Positions 12,445-30,914 of a stretch of 64,000 nt of DNA are shown here, piece after piece; positions within the stretch are counted from its first letter, which is position 1; each line of letters starts with the position of its first letter. The position numbers were made by a program, and so were the translations under genes. The DNA comes from Actinomycetes bacterium (GTDB lineage Bacteria; Actinomycetota; Acidimicrobiia; Acidimicrobiales; Ilumatobacteraceae), in assembly GCA_025360105.1 (NCBI GenBank), contig JANYCT010000092.1, positions 1 through 64,000 on the forward strand. The letters are read 5' to 3'. The notes under the pieces are model-generated. The model saw only the letters and a list, made by a program, of their open reading frames with translations. It was not told where the DNA came from and did no database searches.

Positions 12445-15400
12445 TGCGCCCGTTACGAATCGAGTTCCAGGCGTTCGGGTCATTCCCGGGCAAGCACGTC
12501 GTCGATTTCGAACCTCTGGCCAAGCGCGGCCTCTTTGTCGTCACCGGGCCCACAGGTACAGGCAAGACAACGGTGTTCGACGCGATGGTGTACGCGCTTT
12601 ATGGCGTGCTTCCGGGTGGACGATCCAGTGATGGCGACCCGCGCTCGCATCACGCCGCGCCCGATGTCGAGACGTTCGTGACACTCGACTTTGAGGTCGA
12701 CGGAAGTCGCTACCGCGTGCACCGCACCCCGAAGTGGGATCGCCCCAAGAAGTCCGGCACCGGAACGACCGCCCAGCAGCCGACGGCAGTGGTGAGCACG
12801 CTCATCGGTCAGGGTTCTGACGGCTCCACCGAGGCTCTTGCCACGCAGGCCACCAACACCACCAAGAAGTGCGAGCAACTGGTCGGTCTCGATGCCAAGC
12901 AGTTTCAGCGGGTGGTGCTGTTGCCCCAGGGAAAGTTCACCGACTTCCTGATCGCCACCGACGAGAACCGTGAGCAACTACTCCGACAACTCTTCGGTGG
13001 CGAGCTGTTCGAGCGTGCCACCTCGTTGTTGAAGAAGCAGATGCTCGATCTCGACGATCAGGTGCGAGATGTCGACACTGCGGTGCAACACCACCGCACC
13101 AACGCAGTCGACGCGCTGATCACTGCTCGCACCGCTTGGCTCACCGACATTGATGACCCGTCAGTCGATGCTGCCGGGTCGGCGATCACCACACTCGCCG
13201 ACGATGCCGTGCGCGACCTCATCCACGAACTCGAACCCATACGCGATGAACGCCGACAATCACTCGAGTCGCTACAACGCTTGGCCACCGAGGCAACAGC
13301 CGCACTCACTGCCGCCCAGGGCATGGCCAAGCGATACGACGATGCTGCACTCACCACGGCTCGGCTGCACGAGCTCGAAGCAGTACGCGACTCCATTGCC
13401 GCCGACGAGATCGCCAGCGAGGCCTCCCGTCGGGCTCGCCCCGTTGTGCTCGCGAGCGAGAAGGTGCGCACCGCTCGAGAGGCCGCACTCGCCGCTGCCG
13501 ACGCGCTCGGCGTGGTCCGCGCGATGGTCACTGACGGTTTCGCGGCGCTGCAACGCCCGCAGCCGGCGTTCGATGCGGCAAGCGTGGCCGCCGCCGTGCA
13601 GGTGGTGAGCAAACAACTCGACGACGAGCGCCAGCTGTTGGCCGCCGCACGAGGAGCCGATGCCAAGGCAACGGCCACCGAACAGTCGGCTGTTGCCGCC
13701 ACGATCCAGCACGACACCCTCGTCAGTGCTGAGGCGGAACTCCGCTCGATCGTCACGTCGCTTCAGAATCGCTCCGCGGGGTTGGAGCCCGCTGCGGCAT
13801 CGGTCGACAAGGTCACCGCAGCTGTCTCCGTGGCACGGCGGGCACTCGAAGCACGCTCCAGACTCGATGACACTCACGCCCTACTCAAGAAGTCGAAGGC
13901 CACCGAAGCAACGGTGAAATCCGCGTACGAGGCGACTATGTCTCGGTTCGTTGCGACCCAGGCCCCGCGCCTGGCCGAACTGCTGAGCGAGGGTGAACCG
14001 TGCCCCGTGTGTGGCGCCCTCGAGCACCCGGCGCCGGCGCGCGACGACGACGGTGTTGTCGTCGATCACGAATCCGTCGACAAGGCCCGCGAGAAATGGT
14101 CACAGGAGTCGAACACGGTCATCGGGCAACAGACCACCATCGAAACCTTGCGCGACGAACTCAGTGAACGCGCCGACGAGCCGATCGATGTCTTTGCCGA
14201 CGCGCTCGCGGACGCTGAGGCTTCTTTGGCAGGCGCCGACGCAGCTGCCCACGAACTGGCCGAGGTGCGTCTCGAACTTGCCCAGCGCAACGACGATCTC
14301 GCCGCGGCAACCGAGGCCGCGCAAGAACATGGCACAGAGACCACCGCACTCGCGGCACGCGGGGCGACCGAGCGCGAGGAAGCCGACCGTCTCGCACGCG
14401 TCGTCGCGGCCATCGATGCCGAAGCCCTCGAATCGAACCTCAACACCGTTGTCGCGTTGCAGAAGGCCACCGCCGACATCGCTGCGCTCTTCGATGCTGT
14501 CACCAGTGCCAGCACCGAACTCGCGGGCCACGATGCCCGACTCGCTGAAGAACTCAGCGCAAGCGGATACGCCGACGCTGATGCAGCGAGTGCCGCGGTG
14601 CTCGAGCCGGCCGTGGAGGCCGGGCTGACCGCGCGGGTGCTCACCTGGGGCACCGATCTCGTTGAAGCAACGACACGTCTGCAGCAACTGGTCGAGCAGG
14701 GCATCCCCGACGTACGGCCGGCTCTCGATGAATTGAAGGTGGCAGCCGAAGAAACCAACGGGCGTGCCCTCGTTGTGGCCGACGAGTTCACCACGGCCGC
14801 CAACGCCCTTCGCGCTGCAGCCGATGAACTCGACGCAGCGGCTGCCGTGGCGGCAGACTCCGCCGATCTTCGTCATCGTCGCGATACGGCGCGCACGGTG
14901 TTCAAGACCTGCAACGGTGAGGCTGGCATCCGCGTCAAGCTGGAACGGTGGGTGCTCGCCGGCGAACTCGACCGGGTCACGAACGCAGCCAACGAACATC
15001 TCGCCCGGATGACAAACCGTCGTTACACGCTGAGTAGAAGTACGGGTGCCGCGGGCAGCGCGGGCGGCGGCACCTCCAGCAGGGGTGGTCTCACACTCGA
15101 GGTCTTCGACGCCCATACGGGTCGCTCGCGACCCACCGCGTCGTTGTCGGGTGGCGAGCAGTTCCAGGCGTCGCTGTCACTCGCGCTTGGTTTGGCCGAT
15201 GTGGTCAGTCACGGCGGCACCGCCAGCGGCAAGCAGTTCGAGGCATTGTTCGTCGACGAAGGGTTCGGCTCGCTCGACCCCAACGCGCTCGATGACGCGA
15301 TTGTGGCGTTGTCGATGCTCCACGACGCGGGCCGCATGGTGGGTGCCATCACCCACGTCGAAGCGATGAAGGAACGTCTGCACGTGGGCATCGAGGTCAC

Positions 15401-15446
15401 CGCACTCGAGAATGGCAGGGGCTCCACGCTGACTGTCAACCCGTGA
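12444..15446 (+). CDS. sbcC: Exonuclease subunit SbcC (Rad50-like ATPase)
   Basis: 1000 residues. The N-terminus MRPLRIEFQAFGSF is followed by Walker A GPTGTGKTT near residue 36. Long Ala/Glu-rich coiled-coil arms flank the zinc hook CPVC at residues 520-523. The C-terminus has the signature LSGGEQFQASLSLALGL and Walker B ALFVDEGFGSLD. It forms the SbcCD complex with the preceding gene and uses ATP to open DNA ends for the nuclease. The length is normal for the family. The start is fixed by the TGATG junction with sbcD; the frame is open upstream but that part lies within sbcD. Confidence 0.95.
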   Translation: MRPLRIEFQAFGSFPGKHVVDFEPLAKRGLFVVTGPTGTGKTTVFDAMVYALYGVLPGGRSSDGDPRSHHAAPDVETFVTLDFEVDGSRYRVHRTPKWDRPKKSGTGTTAQQPTAVVSTLIGQGSDGSTEALATQATNTTKKCEQLVGLDAKQFQRVVLLPQGKFTDFLIATDENREQLLRQLFGGELFERATSLLKKQMLDLDDQVRDVDTAVQHHRTNAVDALITARTAWLTDIDDPSVDAAGSAITTLADDAVRDLIHELEPIRDERRQSLESLQRLATEATAALTAAQGMAKRYDDAALTTARLHELEAVRDSIAADEIASEASRRARPVVLASEKVRTAREAALAAADALGVVRAMVTDGFAALQRPQPAFDAASVAAAVQVVSKQLDDERQLLAAARGADAKATATEQSAVAATIQHDTLVSAEAELRSIVTSLQNRSAGLEPAAASVDKVTAAVSVARRALEARSRLDDTHALLKKSKATEATVKSAYEATMSRFVATQAPRLAELLSEGEPCPVCGALEHPAPARDDDGVVVDHESVDKAREKWSQESNTVIGQQTTIETLRDELSERADEPIDVFADALADAEASLAGADAAAHELAEVRLELAQRNDDLAAATEAAQEHGTETTALAARGATEREEADRLARVVAAIDAEALESNLNTVVALQKATADIAALFDAVTSASTELAGHDARLAEELSASGYADADAASAAVLEPAVEAGLTARVLTWGTDLVEATTRLQQLVEQGIPDVRPALDELKVAAEETNGRALVVADEFTTAANALRAAADELDAAAAVAADSADLRHRRDTARTVFKTCNGEAGIRVKLERWVLAGELDRVTNAANEHLARMTNRRYTLSRSTGAAGSAGGGTSSRGGLTLEVFDAHTGRSRPTASLSGGEQFQASLSLALGLADVVSHGGTASGKQFEALFVDEGFGSLDPNALDDAIVALSMLHDAGRMVGAITHVEAMKERLHVGIEVTALENGRGSTLTVNP

Positions 15447-16386: not shown

Positions 16387-17052
16387 TCAGCGTCTGAGCT
16401 CCGTGATCGCGCAGGCGACAATCACGCCGGGCCACGGACTCGCGTGGCTGAGCTGACAATGCGGATCGTGGTGGCGCGGGGTGAGGGTGATGCGTGTGAG
16501 CTCGTCGATCAGGCCTTGGTCGCCCATCTTCACCCACGCTTCCTTGCGCGTCCAGCATTCGAAAAACGCCGTATCCGCATCAGACTGCGCCTGCAACCAA
16601 TCCAGCTCCTGGGGTGAGAGCACGAGCGCAGCGCTCTCTAGATCCCACACCTCGGGGCGCACGCGCTCGATGTCGACCCCGATCGGCTGGTCTGCCACTG
16701 CGATCACGGCGAGTCCACTTGCATGCGAGACGCTGAACTGCAGACCCGTGCGCGCTTGCGGTTCGGCGAGCACCGGTTTGGCGCGTCCGACAGTGTCGAA
16801 CACCACCGTCGCCGCGCCGATGCCGAGGCGGTCTCCGATGAGGCAACGCAGCGTGTAACGGGTCGTGACGAATGCCCACTGATCGTGCGTAGTGCGATAC
16901 CGGAGTGCGCGTTGTTGCTCATCCGCCGACAGCGTTCCCCAGGCCTCGTTGCTCGGCGCGGCATCGACGCTCAGATACCCGATTTCGCAGCCTGGCGGAG
17001 TAACGAGTTCAGGCACAGGCGCAACGTGAACGACCCGCTGTGTTGCACTCAC
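16387..17052 (-). CDS. 4'-phosphopantetheinyl transferase, Sfp type
   Basis: 221 residues. It transfers phosphopantetheine from CoA to carrier-domain serines, here presumably those of the adjacent NRPS and loading protein. Key motifs are LQFSVSHASGLAVIAVAD (residues 104-121), GVDIERV (125-131) with the magnesium-binding Asp and Glu, and FFECWTRKEAWVK (163-175) with the catalytic Glu and Lys. The length fits the Sfp group. The start overlaps the end of the NRPS gene by 4 bases, making it the last gene of the loading-protein/NRPS operon. Confidence 0.93.
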   Translation of the reverse strand: MSATQRVVHVAPVPELVTPPGCEIGYLSVDAAPSNEAWGTLSADEQQRALRYRTTHDQWAFVTTRYTLRCLIGDRLGIGAATVVFDTVGRAKPVLAEPQARTGLQFSVSHASGLAVIAVADQPIGVDIERVRPEVWDLESAALVLSPQELDWLQAQSDADTAFFECWTRKEAWVKMGDQGLIDELTRITLTPRHHDPHCQLSHASPWPGVIVACAITELRR

Positions 17053-20000
17053 GGCAGTGCGTCGAGGAATCGAGACACCACAACGGCAACCTCAGTCACG
17101 TTCGTCTCGGCAAGGAGAGATTCTGACCCGCCGTGCGCACCGCTGACCACCGACGTCTGCGTCTCGGCACCGACGAGACGTTCCCACTGCTGAATGTACG
17201 AGACGCGTTCTTGTTCGTCGGGATGATGATCGGCGGCGATCACCAGCAGCGAGCGCACCGACGAAGGGATGGCTTCGAGGCGGTACTCCGGCAGGATGGC
17301 CAGATGGTGGGTAAGACACTGATCGATGGCGAGTTCTGCGGGCATCTTCCAGCCAAAGCGGCGAATCATGCGATACCTCATCCGCCTCGCTACGCGCCCG
17401 CTGATCCGGTTCCAGCGATTGCGGAGTGCGTTGAACAGACTGCCGACGATGCCGTGCATTTGCAGTTTGCCTTCGGCGCGCGCGGTGGCAAGGGTCGCCT
17501 GCCAGCGTTGCGGGGTTCGTGCGCCCGGCGTTGGGTCGAACAGGATCAAGCCCTCTACCGGATGGCCCCGCGCCACGAGCTGGCGCGCCATCTCAAACGC
17601 GACGATGCCGCCCGAGGAGAACCCGCCTACAACTACCGGGGCCCCAGCGGAACGGGCAATGATCGATTCGACATACGTCGCGGCCATTTCCTCGATGCTC
17701 TGGTCCCAGGCTTCGTGCCCATCGAGGCCCTTGGCGATGACGCCGACCACCGCGCGTCCCGCCGGAAGGTGCGCTGCGAGCCGCTCGTAGTCGAACACGT
17801 GGCCGTTTCCGGAATGCACTAGATAGAGCGCAGGTTCGGTACCGGGTCGCATCGAGACGAACAGTCCGGGGTGGGTGTGGTTCCCCATCGTGCGACGTTG
17901 CCCTTCGACCAGAGCCGAGAGTTCACGCAGGGTCTGGTGCTCGAAGATCGTCGACAACGGGAGGTCTACCCCGAGCTCGTGGCGGATCGCGGCGAGCATC
18001 CGAACAGCGAGGAGCGAATAGCCCCCGAGATCGAAGAACGACTCGTCAGCGCTGTTGGCGTCGCCTCCCACGAAACGTGTCCAGATGTCGAGCATCGGGC
18101 CCGATATCGGTGCGGTCGTCGCCGCCGACGCGACCACCGCTGGCCGGCGTAGACCGTCGAGCGCCGACCGGTCGAGCTTGCCGTTTGCGGTGAGTTGCAG
18201 TCGCGGTACCACCACGATCGTCGACGGAATCATGTGCGAGCTGACCTGCGCTTCCAGATACCGTCGGAGCTCGCGTTCGTCGACATCGGTGGCCTCGATG
18301 AACGCGGCGAGGGTGACGCCGTCGGGCCCGTGGTCCACGTCGACAACGGCCGCAGTCACCGCGGGATGGGTGCCGAACGCTGCCTCCACCTCTTCGAGCT
18401 GAATGCGGAACCCACGCACCTTCACTTGGCGATCGACACGACCGACGAATTCGATTGCGCCGTCTGTCGGACGGCGTCGCACCAGATCGCCGGTGCGATA
18501 CAACCGTGCGCCTGGTGCGGGGTGGAGATGGTCGGCGACGAAGCGTTGCCCGGTCAGCCCGGGATCGCCGAGATAGCCCAGCGCCAGACCGACGCCACCG
18601 AGATATAGCTCGCCGACCACGCCCACCGGCACCAGCCGACCGCCAGTGTCAAGGACGTGCGCCGTGGTATTCGCAATAGGGAGCCCAATCGGCACCGTTG
18701 CGGCGTTGTCGTCGACATGATCCACGCGATGCCACAACGCGAACGTTGTGCTCTCGGTGGGCCCATAGACATGGAGCAGGCGGCCACTCGTGCGGGCCGC
18801 GGCGATGCGTCGTACAGCGGCCGGGTCGCACGCCTCGCCACCGAAGAGCACCGTCTCAACACTTTTGAATTCGTCGGGCTGCACGCTCGCTACAACGTTG
18901 AACAGCGCAGTGGTCACGAACATCGCGCTCACGTGGTGGGTTCGCAGCGCTCGACCGAGCCGATGGGGCGAGGTGACCACGTCGGGGGCGAGCACGACGA
19001 GTGTCGAGCCGTTGGTGAGCGCGCCCCACACCTCCCAGGTGGATGCGTCGAAGGCGGGGTTTGATGCAAACGCAACTACGTCATCACGGGTGAGCTGGAG
19101 GTAGTCGGCACCCTGCACGAGTCGCACGATTGCTCGGTGGGGTACGAGCACGCCCTTTGGTGCCCCGGTGGATCCGGAGGTGTACATCACCGCCGCTACC
19201 TCGGTTCCGTGGGGTTTGCGCAACAGCGGCGCGTCCGCCTCGCGCCGGCTTCCCGCCGGTTCGATCAGCAGTCCGCCCGGGTTCGTGTTGTCGTGGCGCA
19301 CGGTAGCGCTCGCGCCCGAGTCGGCCAACATGGTCGCCGTTCGTTGGGCAGGCTGCGATGGCTCGACCGGTACGTACGCGGCACCAATGCGAAGACACGC
19401 GAGCATCGATGCGATCAGATTGAACGAACGATCGAGGACGAGCATCACCCGGTCTCCAGCTGCGACGCCGCAGTCGATGAGGTCGGCCTGGATTTCGGCG
19501 GCGAGTTCGGCAAGTTCAGCGTAGGTATGACGCGTCTCGCCGTCGATCACGGCGACACGTGTCGGGTCGGCCGTGGTCGCGTCGGCGACAAGGCTGTCGA
19601 CCGTGCGGTCATCGGGAAACGGCCTCGCCGTGTCGTTGAGCTGATCGCGCAGCCACACGTTGGCGTCCGTTCCCACCGACGCCACGTCGCCGACGGTCGC
19701 GTACGTGCCGCTCGCGACCCCTTCGAGCACGCTCGTCACCACCGACATCCATCCGCGAACGGCATCGCGTTCGAGCACGGAACGGCACTCCATCACGATG
19801 GTCAGGTCGCGGCCTAGGCGTGCCACCACCGTCAGATCAAACTTTGCAACGACTGGTGCCGCCAGATCATCGCGATCGAATATCACAGGCTCGAGCCCCG
19901 CGAACTCCACCGACTCGGCGGCCTCGGGATCGTCAAAGACGTTCGCCACCACGCTCACGAGTGGCGAGGTGAGGCCATCGCGATGGGTTTGAGTTGCCCG

Positions 20001-23000
20001 AACGATCTCGTCGAACGGAGCCAGCCGATGCTCGAGTGCCTCGGTGATCTCGGCGAAGATGCGCGTCGCCGTGGCGCGCAGGTCATCGTCGGGTCTCGTT
20101 CGGAACATGAATGGAACGGTGTTGATCATCGGTCCGATGAGCTCGGCATCGTGATCGAACGATCGGGTTGTCACCGGAAGGCCGAGCACGAAATCATCTG
20201 CGCCGAGCACTCGCCCGATACTGATCCCGAGCGCGGCAAACACAAGGGCGCTCGGAGTGACGCGCAGCGCGGCGGCGGTTCGTCGCAATGCGTTGACGAG
20301 GTCGGCTGAGAGCACCGACCGCACGGCCGTCACATCCGATGGCGCACCGGCGTGATCTGCTGTCTCGCCGTGGTCGCCGTGGTCGCCGTGGTCGCCGTGC
20401 CGTGCGGGCTGAGCGGAGCCGCTGACACCATCGAGGTGTGACACCCAGAACGCAATGTCAGCTTCGATGCGGGAGTTGCCGCCAGCGGCTTGGGCCAACT
20501 CCCAGACCGCCTGATCGGAGTACTGCACCTCGAGTGCTGGGAGGAGCACCTCGTGGCCGGCCACGGCTGCGTTGTAGGCGGCGGCAAGGTCGCGCAGAAG
20601 AATCGGTGCCGATTCGGCGTCGACCGCAATGTGGTGGATCACGAGCATCAGGCGGTGCACTGCGTCACCTTCACGGAATAGTGCGGCCCGGATCGGCCAT
20701 TCCTCGACAAGATCGAAAGGCCGTCGCAGATCGGCCTCGGCCAGAGCCGCGGCGTGCGTCGGCTGCCCGCGCAGATCGCGCTGGGTCATGGTCAGAGGCG
20801 CAGCGGGATCGATGAGTTGATAGGGCAGACCGTCGTCGAAGGTGTGATACCGGGTACGCAGGATTTCATGTCGGGCGACCAGGGCACTCAGGGCCATGCC
20901 GAGCGCGGCCAGGTCGAGCCGGCCGTTAAGCACGAACGAGAGCCTGACCTGATACGAGTCGCTGTTGTCGATCTGGCGCAGCAGCCAGAAGCGTCTCTGA
21001 GCAAACGAGAGTGGCGCACGCGTGAGTCGCAACCTCTGGGGCCGCATGAAGGAGGCGCTGCTGGCTGCGATTGATTTGTCCCTCTGCGTCCGTGGTTCGG
21101 GACGCGACGACTGATAAGTCGCCGCCAGAAGCGGGCGATCGGGCTTGCCGCCCGGTGTGCGCGGCAGTTCATCGTGAACCACCACATCGCTGGGCAGCAT
21201 GTAGGTGGGCAGCACGGGCGCGAGGGCATCGCGGATCTCGTGATGGTCAGGGTTGGCGCCGGAACTGATGAGTAGGTGGGCAACGAGGATTGGATCGCCG
21301 CCACCGGCAATGGTTGTCGCGACCACCACAGCTTCGCGTACACGGGGCAGGTTGAGAAGCGCCGCCTCGATCTCACCCGGCTCAATGCGAAACCCACGAA
21401 TCTTGACCTGGTTGTCGATGCGGCCGTGAAACTCGAGTTCGCCGTCGGTTCGCTGTCTGACGATGTCTCCCGTGCGATACCACCGGACACCATCGATCTC
21501 CACAAAGCGTTCGGCGGTGAGATCCGGCCGGCCCAGATAACCCAATGCAATCTGCGGTCCGGCCAGCAGTAACTCGCCGCGCTCACCGACGGCCACCGGC
21601 CCGTCGTTGTCGTCGATGACCAGAGTCGAGACTCCTTGCAATGGGGTGCCGATGGGTGTTGGAGCCCCATCACGCAGGTTGTCGAGATCGAGCTCGGACG
21701 CCGTCGCGAAGACGGTGAACTCCGCGGGCCCGTAGCTGTTCGTGAGCCGGATACCGGGTCGAACGAGTCGGTGCCAGCGTCGCACGACATCGGGGTCGAC
21801 GACTTGACCACCAACGACGATCTGCACAACCGACGACGGTACGCGCTGCGGTGTCGCCTCGAGGTCGCGTACGAGACCCTGCCAGACGCTCGTGGGGAGG
21901 ACGAGCCGCGTGATCTTTTGACGCTCGACCAACGCAAACAGCGCGGTGGCGCCGCCAAAGACATCTGCAACGTGACCGATCACAAGGGTCGCACCGGCGG
22001 CGATGGTTGCGTAGATCTCATGGGCAGAGACGTCGAAGGCTGCGTTGTGGGTCTGCAACATGCGATCGCCGGGCTCGATGTTGTGGCGCGCGATTGCCGC
22101 CGCCGTGTACGCCTCGAGCGCGCGGTGGGAGATCGCGACGCCCTTCGGCCGGCCGGTGGAGCCCGAGGTGTACACGACATACGCGATGGTTTCGTCGGGC
22201 AGTTCGATGATCGGATCGGTTGCGGCAAAGGTGGTGCCGGGCTCATCGGTTCGTATCACGGGGACGCCGTGCGTTGCGAAGATTGGTGTGCTGTCGGCGA
22301 CGATGGCATGGGGGAGCGTGTCGGCAAGGATTAGCTCGAGACGCGCTCTCGGCGCGTCTAGGTGCAACGCCACAGAGCCGGCGCCGACACGATGCACGGC
22401 GAGCAAGGTAGCGATGAGGTCGACGCCACGCCCCATCGCTACAGCGACCAACGTCGCGGGTTGCACACCCGCAGCGAGTAACGCGTTGGCCAGCGCATCG
22501 ACGCGACCGTCGAGCTCGGCATAGTTCACGACGCGATCGCCGTCGACCAACGCCGGTCGGTTGGGTGTGACGGTCGCGTGCTGGGCGAGCAGCCGGTGGG
22601 CGCGTGGTGACGACGGCCACGTCGTCACCAACGGCAGTGATGCAACGGGCGCCGAGAGATCAGCAAGGCCTTCCTCGATGAAGTGCGCGAACCCGGCGAT
22701 CATCAGCCGAACACGGGAACGATCGAAGAGTTCGGCGTCATAGCGCAGCGTGGTAGTGAGCTGCTCGCGATCCGATGTGTAACAGCGAAGCTCGAGCGTT
22801 GTCGGTGTGCACGCGATCGGCTCGGGAAACCACCGCCAGCGCAACGCGTCCGTGTCGCCCTCGCCGCGCTCGTGCAGGCCAAGTAGATTCACCCCGAACT
22901 CGAAGGGGCGCTTGTTGCTGTGATCTTCGCAGAGTTCGAGTACGTCCGCGATCTGGGCGAAGGTCGGATGGTGGTGCTGGCTGGCGCGTGCGACGACCAT

Positions 23001-26000
23001 CGTGACTTCGTCGATCGCCTGACTGACAGTCGCGTTCGGTCGCAGTCGGATTCGCAGCGGCAGATCGGACACGAACATGCCGACTGCGGAGTCGGCACCG
23101 CGAGCCTCGCGAACGGTGGAATGAGTGACGAGGGTGAGTTCCTGTTGGTTCTCATCGAGTCGCGACAGGAATGCGGCCCAGAGCGCGCCAAGCACCCGGA
23201 AGGTGCTCGAGTTCGACTCGGTGGCCGCAGTTTCGATGAGGGCACGCACGGCGGGTCGAAACCTGACGCGCTCGTGACGGATGTCGATACGGATCGATGC
23301 CTTGCGCGGATGATCGGTGGGCAGGTCGAGTGACAGGAGCGGAGGCGTCAGTTCGGCACGCCAGAACGCAAGGTCGCGCTCGATGACGCCTTCGTCGAGG
23401 TGCTCCTGCTCGACGCGGGCGATATCCATTGGACGTGCGATCATCGCGGGAAGCTCTGGCGCGGAGCCGGCGACGAGGGCCTCGTACACCGTGCGCAGTT
23501 CGTCGATGAGGATGTCGATCGACCGGTCATCGGCGACTGGCTGCCGGACGACGAACGCGAACACATGCTTATCGGTCCCGAGGTGGACCACGGCGGGTGT
23601 GATCAGCGGCCAATGACCGAGGTCAGCTGCGGCGCAGTTGAGCAACATCGTGTGGAGCGCGTTCTCTTCGAGCGGGGCGGGTCCGTGCTGCACGACTTCG
23701 ACGGGAAGGAATGCTTGTGACGCAATGACCTGTTCGCCGCTTGCCAAATCGAACCATGTTCGCAACGCCCAGTGTCGCTCGACTAGCGCATTGATTGCGG
23801 ACTGGAGCACCGCCATGTCGAGTGGACCGAGGAGCACACGTATCGAAGCGATCACTGTCTGCGCCGATATCGCACCGGTCGCGCGCTCGTTGATGAACGG
23901 TTGCTGCCGTTGCGAAATGGCCAGCCGCTGCTGTTCCGATGACACAGAAGCGATTCCGCGTTCGGGTGTCGGTGCATCGCGCGCCGGGGCCGGCGCGACA
24001 CCGAGTGCGCCGCGTACGAGACCGGCGATCGCTGCCGGTGAATCGGCAGTGAACACACTGTTGAGCGAGAGCAGAACCGACAGTTCGGTCGAGATCCGAT
24101 GGATCATTCGTAGCGCGGTTATCGAGTGACCGCCGATGTCGAAGAAGTTGGTGTCGGCGTGTACCTCGACGTTCGGGAACACTGTTTGCCAGATGCGGAT
24201 TACCTGGGTCTCGATGTCGTCAGCGGCCGGCTGCGTGCCAGTGATCGGCGCGGATGAGTTGGCAGTGAGCGCAGCTCGGTCGAGTTTGCCGTTTGGTGTG
24301 AGCGCAAGCCGATCGACCAACACGATCTGACGGGGTACGCCGCTCGCTGGCACCAACTGTGCGAGTGCCGCGCGGACATCGGAAGCGGTGTGGCCGGATT
24401 GGGCCAACACAACGCCCGCGAGCAGGCCGGTGCGCCCGTCGGTTTCGGTGACGCTGATGACCGCAGCCTCAGCGACTATCGCCAGGCGCATCAGGTGGGC
24501 TGCGATGTCGGCTGGGTTGGTACGCGTGTCGTTGACCTTCACCTCGTCGTCGAGGCGACCCAGCACCGTGACTGCGCCATCGTCGCGCGAGACGCCGAGA
24601 TCACCCGTGCGGTAGCGGATCTCCCCGACGGCGGGGCCGAGGGTCGCTCGTTGCGCCCACGCCTCGGGCTCGTTGCCGTAACCAGCCGTGCCGTGCACTG
24701 TGCGGACCACGATCTCGCCCTGTTCGCCGGGCCCGAGCAACTGTCCGTGCTCGTCGACGACGTGCAGTTGGCTTCCCGGCATCGGCCAACCGACTGGCTG
24801 CACGCCATCGTCGACGACATCGGGTATGCAGTATGCGGCACGCGCCATGCAGGTCTCGGTCGGTCCATAGAGATTGACCACATGGCCCGGGTGTGGCAAC
24901 GAGGCGCGCCACCGGCGAACCATGGTGCCGAGCAGACGATCGCCGGAGAAGAACGCCCAACGCAGTGCGCCGCCATGTGGCGGTTGCATCGAAGGTGTCG
25001 TCCACGCAGAGGCGAGCGCCGGTGTGACGTGGACGACGGTCACGTTGCTCTGCGCAATCCAGGCAACTACTCCATCTGGATCGAGGTTGGCGGGTGGGAT
25101 GACGAGTCGGGCGCCGGCCGCCCAAGGCAGGAAGACATTGCGCAGGACTACATCGAAGCCGATCGAAGTGAGCATGGCCACACGATCGTCGACTCCGATG
25201 CTGAAGCGTTGACACTGCCAGTCGATGAACTGGCACAGGCTGCCGTGCAGGCCCACCACACTGCGCGCAGATCTGCTGGAACCCGACGTGAAGAACACGT
25301 ACGCCGGGTCGTCCGCGAGGGGAAGGCTCGGCATGTCGGCGAGTGCCCAACGACGTGGCATCTCGGGTGCCATCGCTCCGCTCGTCTCCAGCCGCACCGT
25401 CGGGTGCAGGAACTCCGGTGGGGTGCCGACGGCGATCGAGAATCGCGCGTCGACGGCGCGGCTGCGCTCGATGAACGCGGCCTGGGGCAGGTCGGCTGAG
25501 AGCGGCACCATCATCGTTCCGGCGAGCAGTGCACCGAGCATCGCGATGGCGACGCCAGCCGATGGAACTCCCGTGATGATGACTGCATCCCCTGCTGACG
25601 ATCCGGCGCAGTGCAGTTGGTGGGCAACATCTTGGGCACGCGCGAGCAGCTCTGTGTAGGTGAGGTCGCCGTCGACAGACTCAACAGCGATTGCGTCTGG
25701 CTTTGCGGCGACGCGGCCGATGATGCGGTCGAGGACCGTTGCATCCCACTGCCGTTCCAGCGGCGCTGAGGGGTCGGTCAGAGCGGCGATAGATGGTTCG
25801 TGCAGCTCCGCAGCGAGGTCGGTCCACGGACGGTTCGCGAAGCGCGCGAGTTGTCGAACTGCTGTGACGACTCGCTGCGCGAGCGTTGCCACCGCGTCGT
25901 CAGCACCCGGGGGTGGCGTGATCCGGGTGACGATGCGCATGCTGCCATCGGGCCGGGGCTCGGCGACGATCTGCAGCGGAGCATCGCCATCGGTGCGTAG

Positions 26001-27203
26001 GTCCGATGCGGCCAGCCATGGAGCCCCAGCCGGCAGTTCGCCCACCGCAAAGCCGCGAAGTTGGATGTGCACCGACGGCCGCACGCGGTGCCGATCCGCC
26101 GATGGCAGTGCTGCCAGCATACGGTGCCGGGGAGCGCGGGTGGCGTCGAGCATCGTGAGCAGATCTCGGCCGACGCGTTCGATGACATCACCCACCGATG
26201 GCATCGCACGTAGGTCACCGGCGAAGAAGTACGACTCAGCGAATCGGCCGACCAGCGACTCCATATCCGGGTGATGTCGCGAACCGGTGGGGATCTGCAG
26301 CAACGGCCTGTTTGTGTTCCACAGGTCTCCCGTCGCCATGACTGCCGCGGCCGTGAGCCCGGCGAACAGCGTGGTACCCCGTGTGGCGGCGAGCGCTGTG
26401 AGGCTGTCGACCGTGCCTGCATCGAGCTCGGTGACAGCGACGTTGCAGATCTGGCCACGCGGCAGAAGGCTCCATGGATCGAGTAGTTGGGCGCCGTTGA
26501 GCAGGGTGCGCCACGTCTCGGTGGTATCGAGGGTCGTCGCCGACGCTGACCACGCAGCAGCATCGATGAACCGTGGCGTGACCACCGACGTGTTGTCGCT
26601 CTCGCCGTTGCGATCACGAAGGATCGCGGTGCGAAGTGCTGTAGCAAAACGCGGCTCGCTCCAACCGTCGATCGCGATCGAATGGCTGATCAGCGCGACG
26701 AGAATGCGAACATCGTTGACTCGTGTGAACACCACCTCGGTACTGATCACGCTCGTGAGATCGACACGCAGCGAAGTGCGCCGTGTCAACTCGCTCGCCA
26801 GAGTTGCGAGCACATGGTGCTCATCGAGGTTGCCCCCACGGTCGGAGCCGTGCCAGGTGACGGAGACTTCAGACACCGGGCGCACCTGCTGCACCGGAGC
26901 GCCCCCCACCTCCGGGTAGATACAGCGCAGCGCATCGGTTTCCTCGAGGACTTCGCGAATCGCACGTTCGAGTCGAGGCCGCTCTATTTGACCATCCATT
27001 GAGAACACCCGGGCAATGCGCGGAGATCGATTTGGATCGACGTGCCAATGCAGCCAGAGTTCGGCCTGCGCATCGGTGAGGGGTGCTTCGAACCGCGTGC
27101 CTCGGCGCAATCGGTTCGCTTGATCGCGCCGCTGTTCGAGTCGGCGGGTTACCTCCGAGCGGCGCTGCGAATGGTTCGTTGCGGCGTCGACGTCGTCAGT
27201 CAT
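17049..27203 (-). CDS. Non-ribosomal peptide synthetase, C-A-T-C-A-C-A-T-TE
   Basis: 3384 residues. Domains: C1 about 40-470; A1 490-980; T1 990-1067 with S1027 in FFDIGGHSI; C2 1090-1525; A2 1535-2030; C3 2062-2505; A3 2530-3020; T3 3030-3103 with S3063 in FFDLGGYSL; thioesterase 3115-3384 with S3196 in GFSSG and H3357. No carrier motif exists between A2 (ending PGGKPDR) and C3, so module 2 lacks a T domain. The C1 active site reads HSIAIDG (second His is Ser) and C2 reads RQPVADD (both His lost). C3 keeps HHIAVDA. A1 has an altered phosphate loop, TSGSSRSARS; A2 and A3 have normal TSGSTGxPKG. By-eye pocket residues suggest A3 takes a Leu/Val-like residue and A1 something Ser-like; both are weak. 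The start is in an 8-base overlap with the loading gene. Confidence 0.95.
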   Translation of the reverse strand: MTDDVDAATNHSQRRSEVTRRLEQRRDQANRLRRGTRFEAPLTDAQAELWLHWHVDPNRSPRIARVFSMDGQIERPRLERAIREVLEETDALRCIYPEVGGAPVQQVRPVSEVSVTWHGSDRGGNLDEHHVLATLASELTRRTSLRVDLTSVISTEVVFTRVNDVRILVALISHSIAIDGWSEPRFATALRTAILRDRNGESDNTSVVTPRFIDAAAWSASATTLDTTETWRTLLNGAQLLDPWSLLPRGQICNVAVTELDAGTVDSLTALAATRGTTLFAGLTAAAVMATGDLWNTNRPLLQIPTGSRHHPDMESLVGRFAESYFFAGDLRAMPSVGDVIERVGRDLLTMLDATRAPRHRMLAALPSADRHRVRPSVHIQLRGFAVGELPAGAPWLAASDLRTDGDAPLQIVAEPRPDGSMRIVTRITPPPGADDAVATLAQRVVTAVRQLARFANRPWTDLAAELHEPSIAALTDPSAPLERQWDATVLDRIIGRVAAKPDAIAVESVDGDLTYTELLARAQDVAHQLHCAGSSAGDAVIITGVPSAGVAIAMLGALLAGTMMVPLSADLPQAAFIERSRAVDARFSIAVGTPPEFLHPTVRLETSGAMAPEMPRRWALADMPSLPLADDPAYVFFTSGSSRSARSVVGLHGSLCQFIDWQCQRFSIGVDDRVAMLTSIGFDVVLRNVFLPWAAGARLVIPPANLDPDGVVAWIAQSNVTVVHVTPALASAWTTPSMQPPHGGALRWAFFSGDRLLGTMVRRWRASLPHPGHVVNLYGPTETCMARAAYCIPDVVDDGVQPVGWPMPGSQLHVVDEHGQLLGPGEQGEIVVRTVHGTAGYGNEPEAWAQRATLGPAVGEIRYRTGDLGVSRDDGAVTVLGRLDDEVKVNDTRTNPADIAAHLMRLAIVAEAAVISVTETDGRTGLLAGVVLAQSGHTASDVRAALAQLVPASGVPRQIVLVDRLALTPNGKLDRAALTANSSAPITGTQPAADDIETQVIRIWQTVFPNVEVHADTNFFDIGGHSITALRMIHRISTELSVLLSLNSVFTADSPAAIAGLVRGALGVAPAPARDAPTPERGIASVSSEQQRLAISQRQQPFINERATGAISAQTVIASIRVLLGPLDMAVLQSAINALVERHWALRTWFDLASGEQVIASQAFLPVEVVQHGPAPLEENALHTMLLNCAAADLGHWPLITPAVVHLGTDKHVFAFVVRQPVADDRSIDILIDELRTVYEALVAGSAPELPAMIARPMDIARVEQEHLDEGVIERDLAFWRAELTPPLLSLDLPTDHPRKASIRIDIRHERVRFRPAVRALIETAATESNSSTFRVLGALWAAFLSRLDENQQELTLVTHSTVREARGADSAVGMFVSDLPLRIRLRPNATVSQAIDEVTMVVARASQHHHPTFAQIADVLELCEDHSNKRPFEFGVNLLGLHERGEGDTDALRWRWFPEPIACTPTTLELRCYTSDREQLTTTLRYDAELFDRSRVRLMIAGFAHFIEEGLADLSAPVASLPLVTTWPSSPRAHRLLAQHATVTPNRPALVDGDRVVNYAELDGRVDALANALLAAGVQPATLVAVAMGRGVDLIATLLAVHRVGAGSVALHLDAPRARLELILADTLPHAIVADSTPIFATHGVPVIRTDEPGTTFAATDPIIELPDETIAYVVYTSGSTGRPKGVAISHRALEAYTAAAIARHNIEPGDRMLQTHNAAFDVSAHEIYATIAAGATLVIGHVADVFGGATALFALVERQKITRLVLPTSVWQGLVRDLEATPQRVPSSVVQIVVGGQVVDPDVVRRWHRLVRPGIRLTNSYGPAEFTVFATASELDLDNLRDGAPTPIGTPLQGVSTLVIDDNDGPVAVGERGELLLAGPQIALGYLGRPDLTAERFVEIDGVRWYRTGDIVRQRTDGELEFHGRIDNQVKIRGFRIEPGEIEAALLNLPRVREAVVVATTIAGGGDPILVAHLLISSGANPDHHEIRDALAPVLPTYMLPSDVVVHDELPRTPGGKPDRPLLAATYQSSRPEPRTQRDKSIAASSASFMRPQRLRLTRAPLSFAQRRFWLLRQIDNSDSYQVRLSFVLNGRLDLAALGMALSALVARHEILRTRYHTFDDGLPYQLIDPAAPLTMTQRDLRGQPTHAAALAEADLRRPFDLVEEWPIRAALFREGDAVHRLMLVIHHIAVDAESAPILLRDLAAAYNAAVAGHEVLLPALEVQYSDQAVWELAQAAGGNSRIEADIAFWVSHLDGVSGSAQPARHGDHGDHGDHGETADHAGAPSDVTAVRSVLSADLVNALRRTAAALRVTPSALVFAALGISIGRVLGADDFVLGLPVTTRSFDHDAELIGPMINTVPFMFRTRPDDDLRATATRIFAEITEALEHRLAPFDEIVRATQTHRDGLTSPLVSVVANVFDDPEAAESVEFAGLEPVIFDRDDLAAPVVAKFDLTVVARLGRDLTIVMECRSVLERDAVRGWMSVVTSVLEGVASGTYATVGDVASVGTDANVWLRDQLNDTARPFPDDRTVDSLVADATTADPTRVAVIDGETRHTYAELAELAAEIQADLIDCGVAAGDRVMLVLDRSFNLIASMLACLRIGAAYVPVEPSQPAQRTATMLADSGASATVRHDNTNPGGLLIEPAGSRREADAPLLRKPHGTEVAAVMYTSGSTGAPKGVLVPHRAIVRLVQGADYLQLTRDDVVAFASNPAFDASTWEVWGALTNGSTLVVLAPDVVTSPHRLGRALRTHHVSAMFVTTALFNVVASVQPDEFKSVETVLFGGEACDPAAVRRIAAARTSGRLLHVYGPTESTTFALWHRVDHVDDNAATVPIGLPIANTTAHVLDTGGRLVPVGVVGELYLGGVGLALGYLGDPGLTGQRFVADHLHPAPGARLYRTGDLVRRRPTDGAIEFVGRVDRQVKVRGFRIQLEEVEAAFGTHPAVTAAVVDVDHGPDGVTLAAFIEATDVDERELRRYLEAQVSSHMIPSTIVVVPRLQLTANGKLDRSALDGLRRPAVVASAATTAPISGPMLDIWTRFVGGDANSADESFFDLGGYSLLAVRMLAAIRHELGVDLPLSTIFEHQTLRELSALVEGQRRTMGNHTHPGLFVSMRPGTEPALYLVHSGNGHVFDYERLAAHLPAGRAVVGVIAKGLDGHEAWDQSIEEMAATYVESIIARSAGAPVVVGGFSSGGIVAFEMARQLVARGHPVEGLILFDPTPGARTPQRWQATLATARAEGKLQMHGIVGSLFNALRNRWNRISGRVARRMRYRMIRRFGWKMPAELAIDQCLTHHLAILPEYRLEAIPSSVRSLLVIAADHHPDEQERVSYIQQWERLVGAETQTSVVSGAHGGSESLLAETNVTEVAVVVSRFLDALP
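20371..20397 (-). repeat. Three perfect 9-bp tandem units inside the NRPS C3 domain
   Basis: TGGTCGCCG is repeated three times on the plus strand, with a degenerate fourth unit before it. On the coding strand it gives a low-complexity HGDHGDHGDHG stretch near residues 2269-2279, in a loop of the third condensation domain. It looks like slippage expansion in a tolerant surface loop. Confidence 0.7.
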
Positions 27204-29031
27204 CGAGAAGCCGATCTTCGATCAGCGCTGCCTGCGCGGCGATGGTGGGCGCATCGAACAACTCGATGATGCTGATCGTGATCTCGAGTTCGGTGCGGAT
27301 GAGCGCGAGGAGCCGCATGGCACCCAGCGAATCACCGCCGACGTCGAGGAATCGCGCGTGCACGTTGTCTATTTCTCGCCGAAGCACCCGTGCCCACCAG
27401 TCTGCGAGCAGCTCCTCAACAGGTCCTTCCGGCGGCCGCGACGGGGTCACACCGGCGGCATCGTTAACGTCGTCGAGTTCGGCGAGATCGAGACGTTCGG
27501 CGAGGAGGCGTCGCTGCGGCTTGCCGGTGGGACCCTTGGGGATTTCGTCGCAGAATACGATTCGGCGTGGAACCTTGAAAGGCGCAAGATGCTCGGCAAC
27601 AAAGATGCGTAACTGTTGTTCGGAGACGTCGCTGCGCCGGACAACAGCTGCCGCCACTTGCTCGCCGAGACGACGATCGGGCACTGCGAAAACGATGGCA
27701 TCGGACACGGCGGGGTGGGCGAGCAAGATCTCCTCCACCTCTCGCGGAGCGATCTTTTCACCGGCCCGGTTGACGAGCTCTTTGATGCGCCCAACGAGGT
27801 ATAGCGAGCCATCGACATCGATGCGACCCAGGTCGCCCGTGCGGAACCACCCATCGCGAAACGCCGTCGCATCAGCGAGGGGGTTGTCGACATAACTGGT
27901 GATCATCGAGGGGCCGAACAACACGACTTCGCCGACGCTGCCGCGCGGCACCGCCGCACCGACCTCGTCGACGATTGCGATCTCCGGACCGGTGGAGAAG
28001 CCCACCGACGCTGCTGAACGCGCGGCCGGCGGAAGCGGATTCGAAGCGATCTGGTGAGCACCCTCGGTCATTCCGTAGGCCTGCACCACGGGCACCGCGA
28101 GACACCGTTCGAGACCGTCGGCCACCGACTGCGCCAGCGCTGCCGAGCAGCTCCGAATCATGCGGAGTCGGTGTTCGACCGGGCGGACCTCGCATTGTTC
28201 GAGCAGGGCGGCGAGCAACGTGGGCACCGCAGTGATCCACGTCGGCTGGGTGGTTTCGACGAGGTCGGCAAGGTCGGCGCTGGTGAGCGCGGCGGGCACG
28301 ATCACTTCTCCGCCGCTGAGCAACGGTGCCAGTAGCGCAGCGACGATGCCGTGCACGTGGAACAAGGGCATCACCACGAGCGACCGATCGGCGGGTGTGA
28401 GCCTCAGCGACTGTGCGACGGCCCGTGCGGAAAGGAGCAGTTGGCGGTGGCTCAGTCCCACGAGCTTGGGTCGCGCGGTCGTGCCCGATGTGTGCAGCAA
28501 CAGCGCGGTGGATGCCGCTGTCGCCGCAGCACCCGAGTGGAGGTTCTCGTCGAGCGCTGGTATCTCTGAGCCGTTACGTCGCAACACGAATCGTCCTGCG
28601 CTGCCCCGCGGTTCCAGTTCGATCACTGCGCAACCTGCAGACGCAGCAGCCCGTGCTGCCGCGGGGTGTATGTGCTCGGACATGATGATGGCCGCCGCAG
28701 CGATGTCGCGCAGAACGAACTCGATTTCTTCCGCGGTGGCACGTGGATCGATCGGTGCGCATCGTGTCGCGGCAGCGACTGACACGATACAGGCGGCGAG
28801 TTCGGGCCCACCAGGCAGAACTACGGCTACGGCGCTGTTGGCGTGCAGCCCGATGGATCGAAGCTGCGCTGCCGTGGAGCTGATCTGCGAGCTGAGGCTG
28901 GCGCAGTCGGTGGGCTCACGGCCGGGCGACAGCAGCGCGGTTGCCAAGGGCGTTGTGTTGCCAACGCGCTGCAGCGCCGCACCAATCGACTCCGTTGGCT
29001 CGACCGGTGCATTGCTGAGCTGATGGGCCAT
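27196..29031 (-). CDS. Acyl-AMP ligase with C-terminal carrier domain (NRPS loading protein)
   Basis: 611 residues. Residues 15-520 are an ANL-superfamily ligase: phosphate loop LLLHTSGTTARPKLVGLSHR, MPLFHVHGI, AYGMTEGAHQIASNP, GWFRTGDLG, and the catalytic Lys in KGPTGKPQRR. The MPLFHVHGI and YGMTEGAH forms are nearer to acyl-CoA/aryl-acid ligases than to amino-acid A domains. Residues 535-611 are a carrier domain with FLDVGGDSLGAM (S568). The pair would activate a carboxylic acid and hold it as a thioester for the first condensation domain of the NRPS. It overlaps the NRPS start by 8 bases and is the first gene of the three-gene operon. Confidence 0.88.
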   Translation of the reverse strand: MAHQLSNAPVEPTESIGAALQRVGNTTPLATALLSPGREPTDCASLSSQISSTAAQLRSIGLHANSAVAVVLPGGPELAACIVSVAAATRCAPIDPRATAEEIEFVLRDIAAAAIIMSEHIHPAAARAAASAGCAVIELEPRGSAGRFVLRRNGSEIPALDENLHSGAAATAASTALLLHTSGTTARPKLVGLSHRQLLLSARAVAQSLRLTPADRSLVVMPLFHVHGIVAALLAPLLSGGEVIVPAALTSADLADLVETTQPTWITAVPTLLAALLEQCEVRPVEHRLRMIRSCSAALAQSVADGLERCLAVPVVQAYGMTEGAHQIASNPLPPAARSAASVGFSTGPEIAIVDEVGAAVPRGSVGEVVLFGPSMITSYVDNPLADATAFRDGWFRTGDLGRIDVDGSLYLVGRIKELVNRAGEKIAPREVEEILLAHPAVSDAIVFAVPDRRLGEQVAAAVVRRSDVSEQQLRIFVAEHLAPFKVPRRIVFCDEIPKGPTGKPQRRLLAERLDLAELDDVNDAAGVTPSRPPEGPVEELLADWWARVLRREIDNVHARFLDVGGDSLGAMRLLALIRTELEITISIIELFDAPTIAAQAALIEDRLLDD

Positions 29032-29102: not shown

Positions 29103-30914
29103 CTACTGCTTGAGCCAGATCGCATTCAGCCAGAACTGGCCGCTGGCGCCAACGTCGTCGCTTGACGCTGCGCCGTCGGGGAGCACCGTCTGCCCGAGGC
29201 CTTGCACCTTGGGAGAGTGCGGCGTGCCCCAGATCGCGTAGGACGTGGGGATCTGGTAGCACATCTTCGCAAACTGGCGGTTGATGTTCTCGGCTGCGGC
29301 CGTACGAGCAGCCTCGTCAGGGTTGCTGCGCGCCGTCGCCAAGTTGTCGTCAACGATGGGGTCGTTGATGCGCGAGAAGTTAAGCGAAATGCCCTGGCCA
29401 TCTTTGGCCGCTGTACGCGAGTTCCACCAGTAGTTCTGGCCATCGACAGTGATGCCAGCGTGCTGACGCCATCCGTATATATAGAACCCGGCGTCACCGA
29501 GCAGCGCGTTGGTGATGAACTTGTCTTGGGGCACGACGTTGACGGTGGTGGTCACACCGATCTTGGCCCAGTAGCCCTTGAGCAACTCGGCGGTCTGATC
29601 ACCCAATGCCGTGGCCGTGTGGCCATACGTGACCGCGATCGTGGTTGCACCGGTGGCCGCCTTGTACTCGTCGATCAGCTTCTGGGCGCCGACGAGGTCC
29701 TGCGCCGGATCGAAGCCGTTGTCTGCAAGGTATCCCTGCTGACCGGGGGAGAAGACGCCATTGGCGATCGTGCCGATGCCATTCCCGACGAGGTCGATGA
29801 GTTCCTGACGATTGATCGCCTTCGACAGGGCGCAGCGAACCCGGGCGTCCTGCGTTGGGCCGGCCTTGTCCTGATCGATGAGCAGATAGTTGGTCTCGAC
29901 GAACTTGGTCTGCTCGTTCATCGGGAAGTCCTTGGCGACATCGCGGAAATCCTTGATGACGGCGTTGGCTGAGGTGGAGAAGATATCGATCTCACCCTTC
30001 TTCAGCGCCTCTTCGGCAACCTGGCTGTCCTCGATGACCTTGAAGTCGATCTCGTCGAGGTAAGGCAGTTGCACACCGTTGGCATCCTTTTGCCAGTAGT
30101 TCGGGTTGCGCTTGACGATCAGGGTGTCGCGCGGGGTGTAGCTCTGCACGATGAACGGACCAGAACCCACGGGCTGCGTGGCCTTGCTCGCATCGGCCTT
30201 GACCTCGTCGAGCCACTTGGGCGATGCGACGAGCGCCCACTGCGTGGTAAAGGCGCCGGCGAATCCGGGCCAGGGCAGCGGTTGGGTGGCATCGCCGTTC
30301 TTGCCCGTGAAGACGGTGAAGCTGAGGTCGTCAAGCTTGACGATCTTGAGCTCCATCTTCGTAGGGTCGGCGGCTGACGGAATCTTGGCCACGTCGCCGA
30401 GTGCTTTGCTGATCAGAAGTCCCGTACCGCTGTCTTGCAGGTTGCGGATGATGGCGTCGGCGTTCACCGGCGTGCCGTCGGTGAAGTTGATGCCACTGCG
30501 GACCTTCACCGTCCACTCGGTGAAGGCAGCGTTGGGGGTGATGCTCTCGGCGAGGTACGGGTGCACCTTCAAGTCGGCGCCGAACACAGCGACGGGATCG
30601 AAGAACGACTTGGCGCGCTGGAAGCAATAGGAGTCACACTGCATCGCGGCAGGAGTCCACGGGCTGCTCACTTCCGCCTCGCCGCTGACGACGAGCTTGC
30701 CGCCAGGCACCGGCTTGGGAGCCGGCTCGGTGGACGGCGTGGTACCGCCCGTAGCCGACGACACGGGCGTCGATGCGCCGCTTGCGGTGGTGCCGGCGGT
30801 GGCTCCATCGTCGCTCTTCTTGCTGCATGCGCCGGCAACGAGCGCCAGCGTGATCACCACCGCTGCGATCGTGACGCGTGAGCGGTGCTGAGCTGGTCGT
30901 TCGCTGGTCTTCAT
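29103..30914 (-). CDS. ABC transporter substrate-binding lipoprotein, peptide/oligopeptide family 5
   Basis: 603 residues. A lipoprotein signal ends LALVAGAC with the lipidated cysteine at residue 30, followed by a Ser/Thr/Ala-rich linker. The folded part matches SBP family 5: YLAESITPNAAFTEWTVKVRSGINFTDGTPVNADAI, VGSGPFIVQSYTPRDTLIVKRNPNYW, and VRCALSKAINRQELIDLVGNG. Such proteins capture peptides outside the cell for an ABC importer. No importer permease is nearby; the only transporter beside it is an exporter. AGGGGAA precedes the ATG. It lies 71 bases upstream of the NRPS loading gene on the same strand, so it may recognise the product or a signal peptide. Confidence 0.9.
   Translation of the reverse strand: MKTSERPAQHRSRVTIAAVVITLALVAGACSKKSDDGATAGTTASGASTPVSSATGGTTPSTEPAPKPVPGGKLVVSGEAEVSSPWTPAAMQCDSYCFQRAKSFFDPVAVFGADLKVHPYLAESITPNAAFTEWTVKVRSGINFTDGTPVNADAIIRNLQDSGTGLLISKALGDVAKIPSAADPTKMELKIVKLDDLSFTVFTGKNGDATQPLPWPGFAGAFTTQWALVASPKWLDEVKADASKATQPVGSGPFIVQSYTPRDTLIVKRNPNYWQKDANGVQLPYLDEIDFKVIEDSQVAEEALKKGEIDIFSTSANAVIKDFRDVAKDFPMNEQTKFVETNYLLIDQDKAGPTQDARVRCALSKAINRQELIDLVGNGIGTIANGVFSPGQQGYLADNGFDPAQDLVGAQKLIDEYKAATGATTIAVTYGHTATALGDQTAELLKGYWAKIGVTTTVNVVPQDKFITNALLGDAGFYIYGWRQHAGITVDGQNYWWNSRTAAKDGQGISLNFSRINDPIVDDNLATARSNPDEAARTAAAENINRQFAKMCYQIPTSYAIWGTPHSPKVQGLGQTVLPDGAASSDDVGASGQFWLNAIWLKQ

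Follow-up and report, generated by a model that had tools for sequence, protein, structure and literature searches.

Gene Cluster and Domain Organization

The window, a stretch of 64,000 nucleotides from an actinomycete of the family Ilumatobacteraceae (contig JANYCT010000092.1, positions 1 to 64,000), carries on its minus strand an NRPS gene (17049-27203) that encodes 3384 amino acids in a frame without internal stop. Pfam recognizes three Condensation, three AMP-binding, three AMP-binding_C, and two PP-binding stretches as well as one Thioesterase stretch in this protein, and the domain order is C1-A1-T1-C2-A2-C3-A3-T3-TE. The boundaries given below were placed with profiles made from the window's own domains together with EntF. 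The core motifs of adenylation domains, some of which bear the same labels as the domains, are always referred to as motifs.

The first condensation domain, C1 (residues 36-487; window 25743-27098), contains HSIAIDG (26664-26687), in which Ser stands for the second His of HHxxxDG; two of the three C domains are thus without the usual catalytic His. It is followed by A1 (490-980; 24264-25736), with the code DVRHFSLMAK and with noncanonical A3 and A8 motifs (SSRSARSV and VKVNDTRT, respectively), and by the carrier T1 (987-1068; 24000-24245), which reads FFDIGGHSI and matches PP-binding. In C2 (1081-1530; 22614-23963), RQPVADD replaces HHxxxDG. The next domain, A2 (1535-2027; 21123-22601; code DVHVVGSVFK), has intact core motifs save for YGPAE instead of YGPTE, and no carrier of its own: the 33 residues between its profile end and that of C3 (21024-21122), where a carrier would be expected, give no PP-binding signal. 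C3 (2061-2515; 19659-21023) has HHIAVDA, the sole HHxxxD among the C domains of the window. A3 (2534-3016; 18156-19604; code DAWFLGVTFK) has canonical motifs, T3 (3023-3106; 17886-18137) reads FFDLGGYSL, and the thioesterase TE (17133-17831) contains GGFSSGG. All of these domains are encoded on the minus strand, as are the genes that accompany them.

The loader gene (27196-29031; 611 amino acids) encodes an acyl-CoA-ligase-like activating domain, A0, and a carrier, T0; its Pfam matches are AMP-binding, AMP-binding_C, and PP-binding, and its top NCBIfam model is FadD7, under the cut-off of that model. A predicted 4'-phosphopantetheinyl transferase (PPTase; Pfam ACPS; 16387-17052) would prime the carriers. 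The cluster further comprises a fused two-half ABC exporter of 1248 amino acids (31041-34787). Between exporter and loader, a SBP_bac_5 solute-binding protein of the peptide/nickel family is encoded inside the cluster (29103-30914); its 75% identical homologue in a second species of the genus (G007, see below) is split over two other contigs.

The Junction between A2 and C3

The last core motif of A2, PGGKPDR, occupies residues 2017-2023 (window 21135-21155, minus strand); the original prediction had recognized the motif correctly and placed it at 2018-2023. The beginning of C3 is marked by LSFAQRRFWLL at residues 2065-2075 (20979-21011, minus strand), and the 41 residues between the two motifs agree with the distance of about 40 that had been announced.

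When residues 1990-2110 were compared with Pfam at E <= 10, the matches were confined to the tail of AMP-binding_C and the beginning of Condensation, with no PP-binding, while T1, serving as the positive control, gave PP-binding at 6.7e-12. A T-domain profile run with the HMMER filters off returned nothing for the same residues up to E = 1000; it scored 122 bits on the T1 control and -1.2 bits on the corresponding junction of G007. A carrier hidden in the A2-C3 linker is ruled out by these two T1-controlled scans. The carrier that a canonical C-A-T module demands directly after A2 is absent, as had been predicted along with the HMM scan that would reveal it, and the missing T2 is confirmed as real.

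Across the window's own genome, PF00550 finds seven carriers, of which only T1, T3, and T0 lie within the NRPS cluster. The four others are a FAS-ACP-like match in a frame of 158 amino acids, one in a frame of 168, and a pair whose frames, of 866 and 903 amino acids, each have an A domain of their own. With the loader counted, four activating domains (A0-A3) face three carriers (T0, T1, T3), and the original count was correct.

The Same Layout in a Second Species

The C2-A2-C3 region was used as a query against 100 relatives, with at most seven scored candidates from each of them. A single genome of the same genus, G007, proved colinear and 56% identical over residues 2-1115 of the 1116-residue query. 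For the other seven genomes of the genus, the best E-values were 1e-30 to 2e-60, and the listed matches are confined to the A2 part of the query or extend slightly past it. The G007 gene reads A1-T1-C2-A2-C3-A3-T3-TE; it is colinear with the window's gene from A1 to TE and 57% identical over an alignment of 2922 columns, and C1 is absent from it. Two PP-binding and three AMP-binding stretches are found in its product, with no T2: in a Pfam search of its A2-C3 junction, Condensation is the sole match and PP-binding is missing, and 30 residues separate the two profile ends (33 in the window). The comparison of homologous clusters that had been proposed with the prediction thus finds G007 likewise without a carrier at this site. 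Since a relative keeps this layout, A2 is probably not genetic debris and would load the carrier of a neighbor.

The surroundings are also shared. The G007 NRPS gene has a homologue of the ABC exporter (about 88% identical) immediately upstream and a PPTase homologue (58%) on its other side. No loader orthologue was found in the G007 genome, which is 87% complete, the best candidate being 33% identical. A second, partial copy of the line, C1-A1-T1-C2, is present on the 3.3 kb contig 97 of G007 (L040) and is 52% identical.

Core Motifs and Specificity Codes

Ten-letter codes were read from alignment columns calibrated on EntF, whose code, DVWHFSLVDK, we take to be that for serine. The codes of A1 and A2 were not taken as substrate names, and the literature search gave no paper for six strings similar to these codes. 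For A0, the second letter of the code differs between two alignments, and no reading is placed on it.

In the window's A2, the motifs YTSGSTGRPKG, YRTGD, VKIRGFRI, and PGGKPDR make up an adenylation core, and the three strings on which the original prediction had relied (TSGSTGRPKG, YRTGD, NQVKIRGFRI) are all there. The A3, A7, A8, and A10 motifs of A2 are canonical in the window and in G007, while the A5 motif is YGPAE in the window versus YGPTE in G007 and in G099 and G208, two genomes of the same order and another family. In the A2 of G099 and G208, Ser takes the place of the Lys of the A3 motif. The codes have diverged to different extents: that of A2 (DVHVVGSVFK in the window versus DTEDIGGVVK in G007) is shared at four of ten positions and differs at six, and nine of ten positions are shared by the A1 codes of the window and G007, by those of the window and G099, and by the A3 codes of the window and G007. 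A core that is kept around a pocket that has changed suggests that A2 is an active domain with an altered substrate.

The A1 domains of the close clade (n = 5: window, two copies in G007, G099, and G208) all keep YGPTE, the Asp of the A7 motif, and the Lys of the A10 motif, and all lack the canonical TGxPKG of the A3 motif and the RG of the A8 motif. The Lys of the A3 motif is Arg in each of the five, a conservative change, and the A8 Gly is replaced by Asp or Glu in three (window, G099, and G208), whereas the A1 of G007 keeps it. In a second tier of seven more distant loci, described below, A1 has both TGxPKG and the A8 Gly in 7/7; Leu stands for the A8 Arg in all seven as well, so that the loss of this Arg is not peculiar to the close clade. 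According to work on acetyl-CoA synthetase, the A8 Gly lines the pantetheine tunnel, and its loss should therefore harm thiolation more than adenylation.

Among the C domains, the position of HHxxxDG in C2 is occupied by QHVVVDG and QHAVIDG in the two G007 copies, versus RQPVADD in the window, which departs from the canonical motif. In C1, HSIAIDG of the window corresponds to HHLAIDG in G099 and G208.

Divergence of the Individual Domains

The nonsynonymous divergence between window and G007 (dN, NG86) increases from A3 (0.24) and A2 (0.26) through T3 (0.33), T1 (0.34), A1 (0.34), and C3 (0.36) to C2 (0.47) and TE (0.52). C2 thus has the highest value among the C and A domains compared, the G007 gene having no C1. 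That C domains are by nature less conserved than A domains bears on this ranking, and dS is near saturation, at 1.1-1.6 over the eight domains and 1.21 for the ABC gene; that of the A2-C3 linker is not computable. Since the dS of the NRPS and that of the ABC gene are similar, both look vertically diverged, and vertical descent fits the two genes. Between G099 and G208, dN is lower in A2 (0.057) than in A1 (0.099), with dN/dS of 0.37 for A2 and 0.36 for A1; at equal ratios, A1 is not singled out as relaxed.

In a decayed C-A pair, relaxed constraint or lost catalytic residues would be expected in both members, and they are seen in C2 only. A2 does not look decayed by these measures; the window's C2 and the close-clade A1 appear more degenerate. 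The original suggestion that C2-A2 may be a decayed and skipped pair suits C2 only in part, with RQPVADD in the window and a high dN but QHVVVDG and QHAVIDG in the two G007 copies, and the sequence of A2, with its one substitution in the A5 motif, speaks against it. Its other branch, that A2 loads another carrier, fits better with the A2 motifs kept in two species and with a dN near that of A3. The departures of A1, the in-line partner of T1, from the A3 and A8 motifs and the relatives with A1 and A2 side by side on one carrier go beyond that prediction.

Relatives with Other Arrangements

The wider family was surveyed with the window's A1 as query in 397 genomes of the order and with an A1 profile in 221 genomes of the family, 395 of the class, 6 of the G208 family, and 396 of the phylum, which amounts to 1415 genome searches, some genomes being searched repeatedly. 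The cut-offs of the profile searches were 1e-60 (family, class) and 1e-90 (G208 family, phylum), and the strongest matches were fetched. The relatives compared are mostly draft genomes.

In G099 and G208, A0-T0 precedes a main protein C1-A1-A2-T-TE with a single PP-binding stretch, and the PPTase follows; as in G007, the PPTase homologue adjoins the NRPS. This rare arrangement, with adjacent A1 and A2, one carrier, and then TE, is found at L041 (6368-12559) and L056 (5391-11231). The second tier consists of seven genomes from other families of the same class (G671, G656, G768, G623, G635, G714, and G638) with the layout A1-C-T-C-A3-T-TE, which in G671 is cut within the second C by the contig end. 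A C-A-T gene and the loader precede in five of the seven, namely those whose contig reaches so far, and Pfam finds two A, two C, and two T in G635, the one tier-2 genome checked. Loader homologues were accordingly recorded in G099, G208, G122, and five of the seven tier-2 loci. The seven lines of this class in which C and T come after A1 in that order (L076-L082; Pfam on L080) thus show another misplaced carrier within the NRPS family, and their A1-C linker has LSPAKRALLEARLR-type repeats.

Three further genomes complete the survey. G122 has the loader followed by C-A1-T-C up to the contig end. In G071, pieces of an A domain lie at two contig ends, one of them with Val at the Asp235 position, and an A1-like A, T, and TE follow; the two pieces are likely a single domain. 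G875 has a canonical A-T-C-A-T-TE and is the sole match at E <= 1e-90 in the phylum sample besides the window's genome. Among plasmids, the A1 query matched two records, both from Streptomyces, at about 35%.

In a tree of the domains, the A1 of the window, both A1 copies of G007, and those of G099 and G208 share one clade (0.999), and the A2 of the window, G007, G099, and G208 another (0.999); the final A of the tier-2 lines groups with the A3 of the window and G007 (1.0). As G099 and G208 have A2-T-TE, an insertion of C3-A3 between A2 and its former carrier was considered; support in the T-domain tree was too poor to decide on it.

The compared loci contain 52 non-loader A domains of more than 300 amino acids; T comes next in 37 of them, C in 10, A in 4, and the contig end in 1. 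One T-less A, in G089 (L043), was set aside, as its gap is a scaffold run of N followed by an apparent T-domain tail, and two A-A cases in L008 were split or overlapping profile matches. Nine A-C and two A-A cases remain, all of them in this NRPS family; the loci were picked by similarity, so these counts give no rate for NRPS in general.

Proposed Loading of T1 by A2

In the close clade, the A1-A2 pair is one carrier short, and the simplest reading is a shared carrier that would be loaded by A2, whose motifs are the better ones in the window. A working and selected A2 without a carrier of its own may load one elsewhere in the line, with A1 and A2 serving the same carrier, likely T1; drawn as it is from sequence comparison, this reading is held tentatively, at somewhat less than an even chance. 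T1 appears the most likely carrier on the grounds that A1 has kept its pocket and departed from the A3 and A8 motifs, that A2 keeps both motifs, and that the motif of the intervening C2 has been lost. In the proposed sequence of events, A0 would load T0 and A2 would load T1 backwards across C2, a putative noncatalytic spacer. C1 would then join the loads of T0 and T1, C3 would hand the chain to T3, itself loaded by A3, and TE would free the product. Catalysis by C2 would be superfluous if A2 loads T1 over it, which agrees with the loss of its motif and with its high dN. We infer an active A2 that charges T1, and a nonproductive C2 and A1. In its general form, the idea would be one of retrograde loading, in which an A domain aminoacylates the carrier of the preceding module over a dead C, the in-line A has lost its thiolation motif and kept its pocket, and the carrier position has moved between genomes; taken as a whole, this is conceivable and rather doubtful.

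Several observations weigh against loading of T1 by A2. YGPAE is found in the A2 of the window, versus YGPTE in G007, G099, and G208. The pocket of A1 is conserved and that of A2 is not, which would be odd if A1 were dead and A2 the sole loader. Moreover, the change from Lys to Arg in the A3 motif of A1 is conservative, and the loss of the A8 Arg is common to tier 2. In G007, the A1 keeps the A8 Gly and the C2 keeps the second His, so the picture of a dead A1 and a dead C2 is weaker there. In G099 and G208, A1 and A2 do not differ in dN/dS, and their A2 has Ser for the Lys of the A3 motif. The window's C1 is without the second His, which puts the proposed condensation of the T0 and T1 loads in doubt, and the search of G007 gave no loader orthologue (best 33%; genome 87% complete). 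Finally, the contrast in dN has to be read against a dS near saturation and the inherently stronger conservation of A domains over C domains.

A bypass of C2-A2 is a serious alternative, albeit one that we consider unlikely. In such a line, A1 would load T1, with which it is in line, the chain would go from T1 to C3 and T3, and A2 would be structural or decaying. The loss of HHxxxDG in the window's C2 and its top rank in dN, the YGPAE of A2, and the pocket of A1, conserved at nine of ten positions, all speak for it. The core motifs of A2 are otherwise intact in two species, however, with a dN close to that of A3, and the motifs of A1 are worse than those of A2. Furthermore, a purely structural A domain would be expected to shed catalytic residues, as did the first A domain of AulA (PMC5238615).

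Loading of T3 by A2, in competition or alternation with A3 and with product variants as the outcome, is improbable. Two A domains before one T in G099 and G208 would be compatible with it, as would the seven tier-2 genomes, in which a C domain stands between A1 and the nearest carrier after it. Nevertheless, C3 and A3, about 1000 residues, separate A2 from T3, and A3 has canonical motifs, good conservation, and a pocket that has hardly changed (9/10). Less still is to be expected of loading in trans, by which A2 would charge T0, a carrier that stands alone, or the other protomer within a dimer. The A domain of HMWP2 charges PCP3 in trans (PMC9547227), and the T1 of a partner would be reachable within a dimer. 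Against this, the cluster has no spare carrier, T0 is already served by A0, and the seven PF00550 matches of the genome include the three cluster carriers and two with an A of their own. An artefact of assembly or sequencing that lost about 80 residues, which the original prediction had named as a possible refutation, is ruled out with near certainty: the genome is a draft of 105 contigs, yet the reading frame is open through the junction, and the independent genome G007, 57% identical, has the same junction. The layout without T2 is old and not an artefact.

Relation to Known Assembly Lines

Precedents exist for shared carriers, for pseudo-A domains, and for inactive C domains that act as spacers. 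AulA of auriculamide biosynthesis is arranged A1-A2-KR-PCP, and its A1, without the essential Asp of the A7 motif, can be deleted (PMC5238615). Consecutive A domains are very rare, with PyrG of pyridomycin biosynthesis as the only precedent according to the same work (PMC5238615). The window resembles AulA and PyrG in having more A domains than carriers (four versus three) and one A with degenerate motifs, and G099 and G208 resemble them in the adjacent A1-A2 before one T. It differs in that A1 and A2 are split by T1-C2, in the window as in G007, that no carrier follows A2, and that there is no KR. The window's A1 retains the A7 Asp along with YGPTE and the A10 Lys, and its A3 motif (Lys to Arg) and A8 motif are altered.

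In VibF of vibriobactin biosynthesis, C1 is said to sit between the A domain and its carrier. VibF has six domains, its A loads its carrier, and its C1 is inactive and serves dimerization (PMC5577590). The degenerate C2 between T1 and A2, across which loading is proposed, may be comparable to this arrangement; however, the carrier of VibF lies downstream of A, whereas the one proposed here lies upstream. In yersiniabactin biosynthesis, the one A domain of HMWP2 serves three carriers, PCP1 and PCP2 in cis and PCP3 in trans (PMC9547227). HMWP2/HMWP1 and the window have in common an A domain that charges (here putatively) nonadjacent carriers, but carriers outnumber A domains there and A domains outnumber carriers here. 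BlmIII/BlmIV of bleomycin biosynthesis, in a paper of 2003, reportedly combine aminoacylation in cis and in trans within one line, and the loaded carrier is said to be on a separate protein with its own nonfunctional A. A loaded carrier on a separate protein distinguishes that system from the window. Among the titles and abstract openings listed, with subscription journals mostly uncovered, none describes a C-A pair that is without a carrier and conserved in two or more species, and none such a pair maintained between two complete modules; the one match on a missing thiolation domain is a strain comparison (PMC6679464).

NRPS products are predicted on the assumption that every module has a single A and a single T and adds a single residue, in left-to-right order. 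Gene order would not reveal the residue order of such products if A2 loads T1. A conserved line of four A domains and three carriers, together with relatives whose A domains are reordered around one carrier, offers a natural series for studying the reach and direction of A-domain loading. The series could likewise serve to ask whether a second A edits, replaces, or alternates with the first.

Beside the cluster and on the opposite strand, the window encodes an SbcC/Rad50-like ATPase of 1125 amino acids (12069-15446), which matches the LmuB profile of Lamassu weakly (62 bits).
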